A stretch of 50,295 bases of DNA from an uncultured Eubacteriales bacterium (lineage in GTDB: Bacteria; Bacillota; Clostridia; Oscillospirales; Acutalibacteraceae): assembly GCA_900316025.1 (NCBI GenBank), contig ONBJ01000004.1:1-50295 (forward strand), given 5' to 3'. Below the pieces are notes generated by a model, which saw only the letters and a list, made by a program, of their open reading frames with translations, was not told the DNA's origin and did not search any database. Position 1 is the first letter of the stretch. Every line of letters begins with the position of its first letter. The position numbers and the translations under genes are program-made. This document shows, piece by piece, positions 45,780 through 50,295 of the stretch.

Positions 45780-46910
45780 ATGCTTGTATACTGGTCTGTT
45801 TTTATATATACAACGATAGTGTCAATTATAGTAAAAAACAACAGCAATAAGACAGAATATTTCAGATCCGGACTGAGTGAAAACACTATAGTTGTAAAAA
45901 GAGTGGGAATATTCGGAGCGTTCATAACTTTTTTTCTTTTGATATATTTTGCAGGTAACAGATGTGACGTTGCGGATTCCGCAGCTTATATGGGTCTGTT
46001 TTATTCTGTCAACGGAAATGTTGATGATATACCGTCTGTTATGGAAGCAGGCGGTAAAGGGCCACTTTTCAATGTTTTTATTATAATATGCAGGAAAGTA
46101 TTTCATATGGAATGGCAGGAGTGGTTTATCACCATAGCTGTTTTTCAGGGCTTTTGTGTTGCAAAGTTTCTCGGAACATTTTCTGATGACTTCAGTTTTT
46201 CGAGCTACCTTTTTATAGCGGATACATCCTTTTACTGGATGCTGAACGGAATAAGGCAGTTTACGGCGGTTTGCATTGTTATTTTGTTTATAGATTTCTT
46301 TTTCAAGAGAAATTGGGTGATATTCCTCCTTTCAGTATATGCTGCTTATTTTATTCATGACAGCGTTGCTGTATGGGTTTTGTTCGGACTTTTTACGCAC
46401 TGGAAGCCGTTTGATATAAAGGCTATGCTTGCCATAACTGCAGCAGCATTGTTCTTTGCCCATTATATAAACAATGATATGGATGATAACGAAAATTATG
46501 CCGGATATTCGGAACAGATGGAAGAAGATGACGGTATAAATATAGTTTCTGTTATTCTGTATTCCATAACACCAGGGATAGCATTTATAAAAAGAAAGAC
46601 ATTGCTTTCAGCAGAACGACCATACTACATAGATATTATGGTAAACCTTTCGATTGCTGTTTTGGCTATAAGTATCATAGGAATATTTACCAGTGGAATA
46701 CTTATAGGACGTATTCCTATATATTTTTCTTTGTGTAATCTGGTTTTGCTTCCATGGCTTATAGAAAACTGCTTCTCGTCAGGTGAGGAGGATTTAATAA
46801 AAAAGGGGTGTTATATAGGCTACTTCTGTTATTTTATATATTTCTGTTATGTTTCAAACGGAGGGCTTACCTATCATTCAAGAAGTCTGCACATTGCTCT
46901 TTACGGATAA
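45780..46910 (+). CDS. EpsG-family polysaccharide polymerase-like membrane protein
   Basis: About ten transmembrane helices in 376 residues. NRCDVADSAAYMGLFY, MEWQEWFITIAVFQ and FYWMLNGIRQFTAVCIVILF match the EpsG/Wzy-like pattern, in which this family polymerises or assembles repeat units at the membrane. It is the only candidate polymerase in the window; no Wzx flippase is seen. It ends 10 bp from the convergent FkbM gene. Confidence 0.82.
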   Translation: MLVYWSVFIYTTIVSIIVKNNSNKTEYFRSGLSENTIVVKRVGIFGAFITFFLLIYFAGNRCDVADSAAYMGLFYSVNGNVDDIPSVMEAGGKGPLFNVFIIICRKVFHMEWQEWFITIAVFQGFCVAKFLGTFSDDFSFSSYLFIADTSFYWMLNGIRQFTAVCIVILFIDFFFKRNWVIFLLSVYAAYFIHDSVAVWVLFGLFTHWKPFDIKAMLAITAAALFFAHYINNDMDDNENYAGYSEQMEEDDGINIVSVILYSITPGIAFIKRKTLLSAERPYYIDIMVNLSIAVLAISIIGIFTSGILIGRIPIYFSLCNLVLLPWLIENCFSSGEEDLIKKGCYIGYFCYFIYFCYVSNGGLTYHSRSLHIALYG

Positions 46911-46920
46911 TATGCTTTAA

Positions 46921-47976
46921 CTATACGCAATATATGTTTGTATCCCATAATGGAATATAAGGGTGATGTCTTAGGAAAAATCTGTAGTCAGGATTTATTG
47001 AGTGGATTAGCAATATCAATTCAAAAAAATCTTCAAATCTGTGGTATGCAGCTATATTGAGCTTTGGCTTGGATTTTCTTAATGTAAGAACTCCGCCGAC
47101 AATCGCTTCCTTTTCATAACCTTCAATGTCCATTTTAATGTATGAAGCATTAAAATGGGCGTTTAATTTATCTATTGTTACAGCCTGAGATGGAGTACCT
47201 TTCATATTTATGCCTGAACTCCGTCCGCTTTCCTGAGAAAACAGGACTGTTCCGTTATTTTTCCAGATTATTTTGTTTTCTGTAAATATGTTTTTCATAT
47301 TGCGAGTGTGTTCATTAAGCTTACGGAAATTTTTAAAATCAGGCTCTACAGCTATAATTTTATTATAACCACCCGAATAGTAAATAAGCTCGTCAATTGT
47401 ATCTCCGTGATATGCACCGAGGTCTATATAGTTTTCGTATGGAGAAGGCTTAATAATATTTTTAAAAATTTCGTCCTTGCTGTCGGTTATATCCCATAAT
47501 AATTCAAGCTTGCCGCTGTAATAGAACCTTACTGTATTTTCAAATACCTGACGTGAACGACTGTCGGTAAGCAAAGAGTACGCACACTCCATTTTTTCGG
47601 TATTTTCAGAGATAAAGCTGTCATCAAATATGCCGCTGCCGAAAACAGGTACATTTGGGACAACAACCTCATGTCTGAGAGAAATATTTTTTATATTTTC
47701 CATTACCTCAGGTATCTGCGTTCCGAATGCTACAGCTATTATAAAATCGTCAAAAAGATTTTCAAAAAAGCTTAATTTATTTACCTTAAATCCACGGTAG
47801 CTCTGACCTCTTACAAAGTCATCGCTTGCCATAATTCCGCTGCACTTAATGCGGAATTTCCCAAAGTTTTCAAGAATTTTATCAGCACCGTTACCCATAC
47901 CGTACAGGATAACGGGCTTGTCTGTTGTGCTGAGATATTCCCATACATTGGTATATTTATCGTTAAGAAAGATCAT
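46921..47976 (-). CDS. FkbM-family methyltransferase with N-terminal Rossmann-like domain
   Basis: 351 residues. The N-terminal part KPVILYGMGNGADKILENF..IMASDDFVRGQSYRGFKV is a sugar-sensing or nucleotide-binding module common in glycan-cluster FkbM proteins. The SAM-binding domain has NYIDLGAYHGDTIDEL, IAVEPDFKNFRKL and YIKMDIEGYEKEAIVGG, with PKLNIAAYH. It probably O-methylates a glycan sugar. ATG at 47976 follows AGGAGAA at 7 bases; an upstream TTG-type extension into the terminator is unlikely. Confidence 0.88.
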   Translation of the reverse strand: MIFLNDKYTNVWEYLSTTDKPVILYGMGNGADKILENFGKFRIKCSGIMASDDFVRGQSYRGFKVNKLSFFENLFDDFIIAVAFGTQIPEVMENIKNISLRHEVVVPNVPVFGSGIFDDSFISENTEKMECAYSLLTDSRSRQVFENTVRFYYSGKLELLWDITDSKDEIFKNIIKPSPYENYIDLGAYHGDTIDELIYYSGGYNKIIAVEPDFKNFRKLNEHTRNMKNIFTENKIIWKNNGTVLFSQESGRSSGINMKGTPSQAVTIDKLNAHFNASYIKMDIEGYEKEAIVGGVLTLRKSKPKLNIAAYHRFEDFFELILLIHSINPDYRFFLRHHPYIPLWDTNIYCV

Positions 47977-48010
47977 AAAATTTCTCCTGTAAAATTTTTG
48001 TTTTGTCAAA

Positions 48011-48041
48011 AATAAAACACGTACCCGTTTTTGGGTACGTG
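48011..48041 (-). terminator. Intrinsic terminator upstream of the FkbM gene
   Basis: On the minus strand a 9-bp stem CACGTACCC/GGGTACGTG (48018-48041) is followed by TTTTATTTTT. It ends transcription of the structured RNA at 48062-48268, unless it acts as an attenuator for the FkbM gene. Confidence 0.75.
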
Positions 48042-48061
48042 CAGATAACATATAAAAAACC

Positions 48062-48268
48062 ATCCCGCTTGACCGTTAGGTGGATATTATAACCTGCCTA
48101 CTAAAAATAGCCAGGTGGGTGTCTAACCTAAATCATTACTGCTCCCAGCATCCGTAATGTATCGTGTACACACGGGAGGTCTGCAAACCGAAACAGGTAA
48201 TCCGACTCCCTTGATGAAAAGTGTAGGGTTATATGAACACCAAAGACGCATCAAGCAGGATATTTTTT
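48062..48268 (-). ncRNA. Structured non-coding RNA candidate, about 200 nt (6S-like?)
   Basis: No gene fits here. Base pairing is extensive. Closing stem ATCCCGCTTGA (48062-48072) with 48251-48261 has one wobble pair. Inner pairings are 48118-48123 with 48236-48241, and 48125-48128 with 48227-48230. Local hairpins: 48092-48096/48112-48116, 48134-48139/48154-48159, and 48174-48178/48206-48210. A minus-strand TATAAT ends 7 bp before the predicted 5' end, and a T-run follows the closing stem. Size, rod-like closing stem and a side hairpin recall Firmicute 6S RNA, but I cannot match a consensus. The plus strand also ends in T6, so orientation is not fully fixed. Confidence 0.5.
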
Positions 48269-48274
48269 AACCTG

Positions 48275-48280
48275 ATTATA
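48275..48280 (-). promoter_or_regulatory. -10 box of the structured RNA
   Basis: Exact TATAAT on the minus strand 13 bp before the closing stem; the -35 region is weak. It sits just after the DUF1292 stop codon. Confidence 0.45.
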
Positions 48281-48306
48281 AAAAGCTTAACCGAAACGAA
48301 AGTATT

Positions 48307-48615
48307 TTATTCGTTATCCTCATCTTCGTCGTCGAAAAGCTCCTCGAAGCGTTTTTCAAACTCATCGGCGAGTTCATCAAGCAATTCTTCGTCCTCGACC
48401 TCAAGAAGGAGTTCTTCACCGTCCTCCTCAACTGTCTGGAAAATGTAATACTCACCCTCAGCCTCAAGCTGCTCCTTAGCGTCATCAAAAACGGGAAGGA
48501 GAGCATAATAAACGCAATCGTCCTTTTCAATGCTGTCTATAATTTCAAACGTATGCTCAACATTATCATCATCAAGAAGAGTAATCAAGTCTGCTTCATA
48601 CTCGTTATTATTCAT
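48307..48615 (-). CDS. DUF1292 protein
   Basis: 102 residues, very acidic. LITLLDDDNVEHTFEIIDSIEKDDCVYYALLPV and EEGEYYIFQTVEEDGEELLLEVED-type strands match the DUF1292/YrzB group, of unknown function, usually near RNA and cell-wall housekeeping genes. The C-terminus is a run of Asp and Glu. ATG at 48615 is chosen because AAAGGA is 9 bases before it; the TTG two codons upstream is too close. Confidence 0.85.
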   Translation of the reverse strand: MNNNEYEADLITLLDDDNVEHTFEIIDSIEKDDCVYYALLPVFDDAKEQLEAEGEYYIFQTVEEDGEELLLEVEDEELLDELADEFEKRFEELFDDEDEDNE

Positions 48616-48646
48616 TTTCAATCAATCCTTTCAAATCTCTAAAGTT

Positions 48647-48675
48647 ATTTTAACCATTTATACGCATTAAGTCAA
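48647..48675 (-). promoter_or_regulatory. Promoter of the DUF1292 gene
   Basis: Minus-strand TTGACT and TAAAAT with a 17-bp spacer, about 30 bp before the ATG. Confidence 0.65.
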
Positions 48676-48764
48676 GTAAAAATTTATTAAAATTATGAAA
48701 AAAATGATATTTTGTGCATTTCCAACAAATATATAAAAATTTTCAAAATTATTCAAAAAAAGTA

Positions 48765-48792
48765 TTGACATTAACTGAAAAGGTGTTATAAT
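48765..48792 (+). promoter_or_regulatory. Consensus promoter of the micro-ORF RNA
   Basis: Exact TTGACA and TATAAT with a 16-bp spacer. Transcription should start near 48799. This is one of the strongest promoters in the window, yet no normal gene follows. Confidence 0.8.
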
Positions 48793-48823
48793 GTAATTGA
48801 ACTTAAGAAAGAGGTACAAACCA

Positions 48824-48835
48824 ATGAGAAGTTAA
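48824..48835 (+). CDS. Micro-ORF 1 (Met-Arg-Ser)
   Basis: ATG AGA AGT TAA with AAGAGG ending nine bases before the ATG. First start after the promoter. Such short frames can release peptidyl-tRNA, as known for bar minigenes of phage lambda; that role here is a guess. Confidence 0.4.
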   Translation: MRS

Positions 48836-48890
48836 GTTTTAGTATTCATTACAACAAAGGATTTAATCAAAGAGTGTGAGGTATACTCCG

Positions 48891-48902
48891 ATGAGAAGAT
48901 AA
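48891..48902 (+). CDS. Micro-ORF 2 (Met-Arg-Arg)
   Basis: ATG AGA AGA TAA with GAGG nine bases before the ATG. The context GAGGTATACTCCGATGAGAAG closely repeats that of micro-ORF 1 and the spacing is identical. Confidence 0.4.
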   Translation: MRR

Positions 48903-48996
48903 TATTTAAACTGGATGTCTGTTGAATTTGCAGCACATCAGGGCAGACCAATAGGCTCAGGTGTGTCTGAAGTCCGGGCAGAAAAATATTATGAAG

Positions 48997-49020
48997 TGAG
49001 GTATATTCCAATGTAATACT
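48997..49020 (+). promoter_or_regulatory. Start-stop element inside a hairpin (Met-stop)
   Basis: ATGTAA at 49011-49016 lies nine bases after GAGG. The flanks TGAGGTAT and ATACTCA can pair with a single bulged G, placing the start-stop in or near the loop and hiding the ribosome site. A bare start-stop with good initiation signals cannot make a peptide, so a role in ribosome binding or RNA accessibility would be needed. Confidence 0.4.
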
Positions 49021-49065
49021 CAGAATTATGCACAAGGAAAATCCGATATGAAAGGAGACAGTCGT

Positions 49066-49155
49066 ATGAGCGAATTAGAACCTGCTTTCGTTAAGGGCAT
49101 TTGCCATATGGCAGGTGTCGGGGATTACGGTCGGAGCGAAGAGTATCGAATTTGA
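49066..49155 (+). CDS. Small ORF of 29 codons (35 codons if started at 49048)
   Basis: ATG at 49066 follows AAAGGAG at eight bases, the strongest ribosome site of the series. An in-frame ATG at 49048 also follows AAGGA by nine bases, giving overlapping starts. The peptide begins MSELEPAFVKG and ends GRSEEYRI, with one Cys and one His in the middle (GICHMAGVG). It has no signal peptide or membrane helix. I recognise no family. Confidence 0.5.
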   Translation: MSELEPAFVKGICHMAGVGDYGRSEEYRI

Positions 49156-49194
49156 GAGTAAAAAAGAGCAGGTATAGAGAACAGTCACCGTAAG

Positions 49195-49263
49195 ATGCGG
49201 GAGGTTGTATTTATCTTTACCTTGATTTTAAACAGTGTCACGATGTGTGAAAGTGATACGTAA
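49195..49263 (+). CDS. Possible hydrophobic micro-ORF (22 codons)
   Basis: ATG AGG-like context is weak; the peptide MREVVFIFTLILN is hydrophobic at first and then polar. GGGAGG lies inside it, eight bases before an ATC. Least supported of the series. Confidence 0.2.
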   Translation: MREVVFIFTLILNSVTMCESDT

Positions 49264-49354
49264 GCTTTGGCAGTATGAAACAATACAACTGAATATTGGG
49301 TACGTAAGGCGTAATTTGTTTTACGCAGAACGAAGATTGTGAGAGTATACACAA

Positions 49355-49372
49355 ATGGCTTCGCAGTTGTGA
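49355..49372 (+). CDS. Micro-ORF (Met-Ala-Ser-Gln-Leu)
   Basis: ATG GCT TCG CAG TTG TGA with GAGAG nine bases upstream, a weak ribosome site but the same spacing as the others. Confidence 0.3.
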   Translation: MASQL

Positions 49373-49499
49373 AATGTGACTGCGGTGTGGCAAAAGGTCA
49401 TACATCAAGCTAAGCATTAAGGAAAAGACGTGTTATTCGTTGACCGATGGTTTGCGGTGGTATAAATTCGTAGCCTAATGTACATTTGGAGATATGCTT

Positions 49500-49532
49500 A
49501 TGAGTTTACAAATCTTTGATGAAATATATTAG
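49500..49532 (+). CDS. Micro-ORF of 10 codons just before the terminator
   Basis: MSLQIFDEIY, with GGAG eight bases before the ATG. Its stop ends directly before the terminator stem, so a ribosome finishing it would cover the stem. This placement could couple translation to termination. Confidence 0.4.
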   Translation: MSLQIFDEIY

Positions 49533-49572
49533 CGACCGACAGTATGGTTTATATGCTGTCGGTCGTTTTTTT
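49533..49572 (+). terminator. Strong intrinsic terminator of the micro-ORF RNA
   Basis: CGACCGACAG (49533-49542) pairs with 49556-49565 around a 13-nt loop, followed by seven T. Confidence 0.9.
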
Positions 49573-49610
49573 GTTTTGTATGATATTTTAGCAAGGTGCG
49601 GAAAACCGTA

Positions 49611-49701
49611 CGATTGCAGCCCGTGGCGGATACCGCCACGAAAAATCGAGCGGAAGCTTGATTTTTAATTTCGGACTTTTGTCCGAAATTGGCTGCAATC
49701 G
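49611..49701. repeat. Four-way-junction palindromic element, copy A4
   Basis: Outer stem CGATTGCAGCC (49611-49621) pairs with 49691-49701. Abutting hairpins are CGTGGCGG with 49633-49640, AAAAATCGAGC with 49656-49666 (one G-T pair), and AATTTCGGAC with 49681-49690. No junction base is unpaired. The 3' flank GCCTGAGCGAAGCCG is identical to that beside A3. It lies between the micro-ORF RNA and the CCA-adding enzyme stop. Confidence 0.9.
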
Positions 49702-49729
49702 CAGCCTGAGCGAAGCCGCAAATTTCAGA

Positions 49730-50295
49730 TTATAAAAGGCTGCTTATTATTTTATATGCGGCATTTTTCAGAGTATCACGGTTATTTTCAAGTGAATTGT
49801 CAAGTACCATTTCAAGCAGAGTGTTTAAAATGATACCTATATTCTTACCTTGGGGAACTCCCATTGAAATAAGGTCATTTCCGTTTATTTTCAGGTCTTT
49901 TACTGAGGTCATCAGCGTATTTTTATTTTTTATATTGTCATATATTTTACGGATTTTATATATTTTTTCCAGTCTTTCGGATATATATTCGGGTGACTGA
50001 GCTTTTACATCGCATTCTTTAAGTTTCAGAAGAAGTTCAAACATATTATGAGAGCCTGTTTTGTATACAGCACGTTTTACGGCTTTTTCTGAAGGTTCAA
50101 TAATTCTGTCATGGTGTCTGACAAGCTCAGAAACTAAATTCTGAGTTTTAGAATCCGCTTTAAGTCTTTGAAGTATATCAAGAGTAATCTGCGAGCCTTT
50201 TGCAGCGTGACCGTAGAAATGTCCGATATTATTTTCATCTTTGGTAAAGGTACAGGGTTTTGCAATATCGTGAAAAAGAACTGCAAGCCTTAGAT
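49730..50295 (-). CDS. CCA-adding tRNA nucleotidyltransferase, C-terminal half (N-terminus beyond the window)
   Basis: Adds or repairs the tRNA CCA end. The visible 188 codons include an HD domain start LAVLFHDIAKPCTFTKD, then NIGHFYGHAAKGSQITLDILQRLK, LVRHHDRIIEPS and a C-terminal helical part with LKINGNDLISMGVPQGKNIGIILNTLLEMVLD, the usual tail of the class II HD-containing clostridial enzyme. The nucleotidyltransferase head lies to the right of the window. An internal ATG at 50044 is not the true start. Confidence 0.88.
   Translation of the reverse strand, partial: LRLAVLFHDIAKPCTFTKDENNIGHFYGHAAKGSQITLDILQRLKADSKTQNLVSELVRHHDRIIEPSEKAVKRAVYKTGSHNMFELLLKLKECDVKAQSPEYISERLEKIYKIRKIYDNIKNKNTLMTSVKDLKINGNDLISMGVPQGKNIGIILNTLLEMVLDNSLENNRDTLKNAAYKIISSLL

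Follow-up and report, generated by a model that had tools for sequence, protein, structure and literature searches.

Conserved start-stop arrays on a candidate noncoding RNA beside the DUF1292 gene in a family of Clostridia

6S RNA holds RNA polymerase by open-promoter mimicry, and CsrA represses mRNAs at their start regions. Translation of the M-X-stop minigenes of phage lambda bar leads to peptidyl-tRNA drop-off, and in Gram-positive bacteria a Shine-Dalgarno (SD) sequence close to the 5' end protects the RNA that carries it. Here we describe a predicted RNA of a gut bacterium that encodes no recognisable protein and is unlike any kind of RNA known to us. It lies in a window of 50,295 nucleotides (i.e., the whole stretch of DNA that was analysed), where the locus comprises the following features.

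48765 to 48792, forward strand: sigma-A-type promoter from the promoter scan, an exact TTGACA-16-TATAAT that also has a TG ahead of the -10
48799 to 49572, forward strand: RNA transcription unit of approx. 0.77 kb, its ends set by promoter and terminator only
49531 to 49567, forward strand: intrinsic terminator from the terminator scan
48307 to 48615, reverse strand: DUF1292 (UPF0473, PF06949) gene, a divergent neighbour that adjoins the RNA in relatives too
48058 to 48264, reverse strand: 6S RNA from the Rfam scan, on the far side of the DUF1292 gene from the RNA

A sequence-only reading of this DNA had reported an exact TTGACA/TATAAT promoter and a terminator of ten pairs, and both were found. 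The promoter matches at 12 of 12 bases (-35 at 48765-48770, -10 at 48787-48792, 16-nt spacer), and of the 20 promoter-like sites that positions 46000-50295 contain, no other does so; relatives have a similar promoter at the equivalent position. The terminator is strong, with a T run and 16 pairs, counting G-U. With the RNA start placed approx. 7 nt past the -10 and the RNA end at the terminator, the fold of the RNA has a z score of -3.49 (against 20 shuffles). The other flank of the RNA holds an opposite-strand ORF (49730-50293). The predicted transcription unit stands alone and carries conserved SD-start-stop elements in arrays, which in the window are represented by the following features.

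48811 to 48835, forward strand: element 1, SD GAGG, CCA, ATG AGA AGT TAA (MRS-stop)
48878 to 48902, forward strand: element 2, SD GAGG, CCG, ATG AGA AGA TAA (MRR-stop)
48941 to 48953, forward strand: decayed element, GGGCAGACCAATA.., intact in genome G001 as MG-stop
48998 to 49016, forward strand: element 4, SD GAGG, CCA, ATG TAA (start-stop)
49050 to 49155, forward strand: SD GAAAGGAG and a 29-codon ORF (MSELEP...) starting at 49066
49096 to 49119, forward strand: hairpin within the 29-codon ORF (alignment columns 372-395)

In the series of micro-ORFs that had been described from the sequence, MRS-stop, MRR-stop, M-stop and the 29-codon ORF stand, but the 10-codon ORF at 49500 is probably incidental; this ORF and its GGAG are kept in G001 and not in the other aligned members of the genus. 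The three repeated start contexts noted before are present as GAGG-N6-CC-R-ATG at 48811, 48878 and 48998, leading to MRS-stop, MRR-stop and M-stop, respectively, and the decayed copy, which reads GGGCAGACCAATAGG and has no start codon, adds a further one. The 2.08-Mb genome contains this pattern at 12 sites, as compared to 13 for a reversed control pattern, and three of these sites are clustered here in a stretch of approx. 200 nt. In this genome, an EF-Tu-like gene (L040, G000 C15) begins with GAGGAATTTTCCAATG, a start context of the type seen in the array. The start region of the 29-codon ORF is widely conserved. The hairpin within the ORF has 9 pairs in the alignment and 10 in the window (by eye), and some relatives carry changes in both of its strands.

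The RNA was found in all six genomes that were searched from the window's genus, giving seven sequences as one genome (G003, 7% contaminated) carries two. DUF1292 lies upstream of the RNA in the genus loci inspected by eye. Six loci were scanned for 6S RNA (L004, L005, L007, L009, L010 and L014, the last from another genus; L006 was left out), and each of them has it. Among the seven sequences, the GAGG, CC and ATG columns do not vary in elements 1, 2 and 4, i.e., in three of the four elements aligned, and the third is poorly aligned (0.72); ATGTAATACTC of element 4 is invariant, the bases between GAGG, CC and ATG vary, and the columns between elements have a mean identity of 0.58. Genus elements with GAGG or GGG reach a stop within 8 codons, through different codons and at different places.

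Towards the 3' end of the RNA, the alignment resolved a structured core, which two models (R1 and R2) find in relatives.

49407 to 49487, forward strand: 3' core, a three-way junction
49414 to 49418 with 49477 to 49481, forward strand: core helix P1, GCAUU with AAUGU
49421 to 49422 with 49444 to 49445, forward strand: core helix P2, GG with CC
49449 to 49452 with 49472 to 49475, forward strand: core helix P3, GGUU with AGCC

Among 15 sequences, 99.4% of the cells of the core are paired, as compared to 43% or less with the partners slid, and cells changed on both sides number 10, as compared to 2.9 in shuffles (0 of 500 shuffles reach this value); for example, an A-U pair of P1 is replaced by G-C in G388 and in zg-924. 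A weaker measure, i.e., the number of pairs with a double change, gave 3 as compared to 1.4 (33 of 500 shuffles reach it), and further pair types in the core showed no excess (7, as compared to 8.3 in shuffles). Model R1, built for the 3' region on 8 sequences, matched 13 of 398 family genomes, and a search of the order (394 genomes) gave 3 matches, every one in the same family. Model R2 matched 6 of 6 genomes of genus g30 and, in the family search, 15 of the 398 genomes, representing 5 of 135 genera; one carrier with a name is Ruminococcus sp. zg-924 (NZ_WNJZ01000002.1). When R2 was run against 44 loci, it matched 5, all previously known, and several of the non-matching loci do carry elements; the core is thus not shown to be family-wide.

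Several other helices were considered and set aside. Long-range pairing of the ORF start (GCGAAUU..ACC) with the core was rejected as G034 and zg-924 alter its 3' strand with no compensating 5' change (by eye), and a CAUU/GAUG core helix of model R1 gave way to P1 once further sequences joined. Two local pairings, a GG..CC hairpin per element and GUCC-RAU-GGAC around the first AUG, fit many copies and not all. Four loci from the first family DNA search (L013, L015, L016 and L017) were rejected as homologues by eye, since none showed the promoter, the neighbour or the core. In G034 (L051:2353-3750), the RNA is approx. 1.4 kb long and has a large insert between ORF and core.

Recurrence of the elements was assessed upstream of DUF1292, which was located in 121 of 135 family genomes; the set covered 110 of the 121 (30 + 80 loci, some cut by contig ends; 11 excluded). 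A strict element was defined as GG..UCC-N followed by AUG, AAG, AAA, GUG or ACA (other start triplets, excluded from this search, made up 11 of 144 raw rows, duplicates included), and a relaxed element as an SD followed by CCN-ATG; those of the window fit the relaxed definition but not the strict one. Strict elements numbered 96 in 41 of the 110 genomes, as compared to a mean of 1 and a maximum of 3 in 20 shuffles and to 1 on the opposite strand, and relaxed elements numbered 113 in 56 genomes (10 shuffles: mean 29.4, maximum 39; opposite strand: 35). At least two strict elements occurred in 23 genomes and at least three in 11; the 69 genomes with none pool contig ends, divergence and true absence. 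A -35/-10 pair was present upstream of the first element in 32 of the 41 genomes, as compared to 1 of 41 with shuffled bases. Spacings between strict elements (n = 55) had a minimum of 47 nt, and 30 of them were 47-83 nt, i.e., about one ribosome apart; one relaxed pair (G075) was 45 nt apart. Model R3, which covers 46 nt of sequence at the ORF start, matched, at E up to 1 and mostly weakly, at least 111 of 200 family genomes, and 17 further genomes had an R3 match beside DUF1292 (by eye; 16 within approx. 0.7 kb and G055 at 1.5 kb). Four of 13 pattern matches on genome contigs (L055, L056, L061 and L066), as well as the viral matches L068-L070, with flanks as in L056, were judged to be chance or ordinary gene starts.

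The array is placed 5' in g1, 3' in g121 and, with one element, in g30, and throughout the RNA in G137. As the position of the array shifts and the element persists, the elements look like an independent unit rather than a by-product of one structure. The g30 RNA opens directly with the 5' ORF and has a single micro-ORF (M-I-stop or M-I-I-stop) just before the terminator; the g30 and g120 RNAs have two elements only, and G334 has three elements 3' of the core (AUG UAA; AUG AAA GUU UGA; AUG GUA GUU UGA). Locus L212 (G137, approx. 875-1625) consists of tandem units of approx. 110-118 nt with two elements each, one AUG-UAC-AAG-UAA and one in which ACA replaces AUG, and holds 12 strict elements in total. 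RNAs of the same kind occur in L096 (G104) and L105 (G051), where DUF1292 is on another contig; L096 combines a long 5' ORF with elements of the forms AUG-UAA and AUG-GUA-UAA, and L105 an ORF start with two non-AUG elements. On the IMG/VR contigs L233, L235, L237 and L240 (e.g., L235:6600-7050), a promoter-terminator RNA of approx. 330 nt lies behind phage tail-like genes and, in L233 and L235, precedes an MreB-like ORF. It had no Rfam match in the three contigs scanned (L235, L237 and L240) and opens with SD-GGUGAGUCC-N-AUG-UAY-stop, after which comes a sequence similar to the 16S tail; this is the array-type 5' element on what seems to be a different ncRNA.

The start triplets of the 96 strict elements were AUG (61), AAG (16), AAA (11), GUG (4) and ACA (4), counts that are not independent, as related genomes and tandem copies (G137) repeat. 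Among the 61 AUG elements, 26 are 5'-most ORFs of 9-29 codons and the other 35 have 0-4 codons. With the long 5'-most ORFs excluded by definition, 34 of these 35 were scored for near stops; a stop within 4 codons was present in 34 of 34 (20 of 20 genomes), as compared to 78 of the 275 remaining AUGs of these stretches. A near in-frame stop was also more frequent in AAG elements (14 of 16, as compared to 143 of 537), and AAA elements showed no clear excess (5 of 10, as compared to 313 of 1089). The non-AUG elements, of which the AAG ones keep near stops, suggest a sequence motif rather than a start codon alone. In a test blind to the SD, AUGs followed by 0-2 codons had a strong SD (E <= -8) in 38 of 368 cases on the RNA strand, as compared to 5 of 273 on the opposite strand and, a modest gap, to 143 of 2057 for other AUGs on the RNA strand (60 of 1806 on the opposite strand). 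Overall, the recurrence, spacing and near stops of the elements exceed chance by far, and the feature is real. As the start-stop arrangement recurs in dozens of related bacteria, it is probably under selection. The regularity had been called unlikely in decayed DNA and a comparison of SD-ATG-stop spacing among relatives had been proposed; SD, CC, AUG and near stop do recur genus-wide and, beside DUF1292, family-wide, which supports the view that the micro-ORFs are no decayed DNA.

Pairing was assessed against the 16S rRNA tail, which we take to be GGAUCACCUCCUUUCU; a pattern made from this sequence was not found in the draft genome studied here. The family consensus of the extended SD stretch, about AAARRGGUGAGUCC, is approximately the complement of this tail with one extra base. 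The duplex energy with this tail averaged -15.0 kcal/mol for strict elements, a value partly built in by the search word (GG + UCC), as compared to -7.8 for DUF1292 starts (n = 98) and -8.3 for gene starts of the window (n = 20). The elements of the window gave -11.1, -11.3 and -13.2 kcal/mol, and the decayed copy -4.2. The SD stretch is predicted to be less accessible than other positions (0.255 unpaired, as compared to 0.383 elsewhere); this prediction, together with the 35 of 96 elements that do not use AUG, argues against simple translation.

The sequence-only reading had proposed that the RNA might sense or sequester ribosomes, and a ribosome-binding or ribosome-sequestering RNA appears to be the best fit so far. 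Conserved SD-start elements, near stops, arrays, and a transcript predicted from promoter and terminator, which we propose as the marks of a ribosome decoy, were all found. We hypothesize that this is a family-specific, strongly promoted ncRNA built around an array of translation-initiation mimics, in which each extended SD stretch would pair with the 16S rRNA tail and is mostly followed by AUG and a stop 0-4 codons on. Initiating ribosomes (30S, or 70S with fMet-tRNA) may dock on the elements, terminate or stall with no protein made, and then rebind, so that one transcript would hold several ribosomes; such a decoy could trim initiation elsewhere or keep a reserve of idle ribosomes, and the structured 3' core might give stability or control. 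That the elements dock ribosomes and release them without a product is a reading we hold tentatively, as plausible though short of probable. Counting against it are the non-AUG elements, the predicted partial pairing of the SD, the modest gap in the SD-blind test, the g30 and g120 RNAs with just two elements, and the 69 genomes in which no strict element was seen.

Other readings account for parts of the same evidence. It had also been suggested that the RNA may be a polycistronic mRNA for small peptides, and a 5' ORF that stays open for approx. 10-30 codons in many genera, together with a codon 6 proline whose third base varies (CCA 5, CCG 4 and CCT 3 among 42 first ORFs compared across the family, a few of them chance matches), would fit this suggestion. 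However, codon 4 of the same 42 ORFs encodes E by GAA in 21 cases and by GAG in 1, so that bases and not residues appear conserved, and the micro-peptides differ between lineages and genera. No purifying selection on the peptide was found among the six copies of the g30 22-codon ORF (one per g30 genome), the counterpart of the 29-codon ORF of the window, where dN/dS was 0.74 in frame, as compared to 0.75 (+1) and 1.21 (+2), and variable columns by codon position numbered 12, 12 and 9 of 22. The peptides lack a clear coding signature; with the non-AUG elements added, the suggestion becomes highly improbable. Translation of the short frames could instead titrate tRNAs, if M-X-stop minigenes caused peptidyl-tRNA drop-off and lowered particular tRNAs or fMet-tRNA. 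Micro-ORFs of 0-2 codons dominate, often with UAC, AAA or AGA as codon 2, but codon 2 differs by lineage and the AUG-UAA forms have no second codon, and we regard titration as improbable.

Two further readings shift the function away from sequestration, and each seems unlikely to us. The elements could cap the RNA, keeping ribosomes on a structured transcript as protection against RNases J/Y or Rho, with the core as the working part; in 13 of 15 RNAs, the first SD does lie near the start of the transcript, at a distance of 59-61 nt from where the -35 begins, and in g30 elements are found at both ends of the RNA. A single 5' site would suffice for this purpose, however, and an array of 12 (G137) plus non-AUG elements exceed the need; moreover, the core was detected in just 5 of the 135 genera and the elements are more widespread. 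Alternatively, the approx. 25-nt motif RGGUGAGUCCAAWGNACARUUAA could be the site of a putative RNA-binding protein and the RNA its sponge; the motif would look like a start region if the protein, in the manner of CsrA, repressed mRNAs at such sites. More bases are conserved than initiation requires (the CC preceding the start, the NAC behind it, and AAG for AUG), which points in this direction. Yet AUG predominates and is followed at once by stops, and the 9 GAGGN6CCRATG sites that the genome has outside the RNA, among them 2 that open ORFs of > 300 codons (EF-Tu-like and secreted-protein-like, named by eye), reveal no evident target set.

No match to a known large noncoding RNA, which had been raised as a counter-explanation for the starts, was found over the RNA. 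No Rfam 15 family (4227 models) reached its gathering score over the RNA in the window; the strongest of the weak matches, to STnc240 (E 0.19), depends on the region of the terminator, and ROOL, GOLLD, OLE and raiA were absent among the 8 Rfam matches with E up to 10. In six relatives, the Rfam scan gave 6S RNA, a single tRNA and two matches that stay under the gathering score, none over the RNA, and ARAGORN found no tmRNA in the window (one tRNA-Met only). A possible likeness between words of the RNA and words of hammerhead RNA, RNase P and 5S rRNA was noticed. In a CsrB-type test (ANGGA in hairpin loops), the RNA showed an SD-like repeat with the consensus GGUGAGUCC, and by eye no hairpin is common to all copies. 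A literature search that included part of PMC8040213 returned no account of the RNA or of start-stop arrays; as that paper reports 3161 candidate RNAs, an unnamed entry for this RNA could exist among them.

If ribosomes do dock, the RNA would control translation globally via imitation of start sites, for which we know of no bacterial example. Even without docking, this is an RNA family missing from Rfam 15 and situated beside a marker gene in dozens of genera, and its start-stop ORFs, too short for the length limits of ordinary gene finding, are here in conserved arrays.

Compared to the known systems, the RNA resembles OLE, ROOL, GOLLD and raiA/ModT in that all are long, structured, stand-alone transcripts; none of these is known to us to have start-stop arrays. 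It shares with the CsrB/RsmZ sponges several short SD-like motifs per ncRNA and a variable copy number, whereas the GGA of the Csr RNAs is in hairpin loops without start codons or stops, and motif, neighbours and hosts differ. Phage lambda bar and other AUG-X-stop minigenes have the same succession of SD, AUG, one or two codons and stop, but are not known as arrays on a dedicated conserved RNA. The likeness to 6S RNA (RF00013) is that of an ncRNA which holds a core machine by mimicking a signal in nucleic acid; 6S RNA mimics an open promoter for RNA polymerase, whereas the start-stop RNA, which itself gave no 6S match in Rfam, mimics start regions, with binding putative. It is possible, if doubtful, that the RNA, whose gene neighbours that of 6S RNA in the window's genus, is a translational counterpart of 6S RNA, i.e., one that would sequester initiating ribosomes on start-stop arrays through extended anti-SD pairing, widely in this family of Clostridia.
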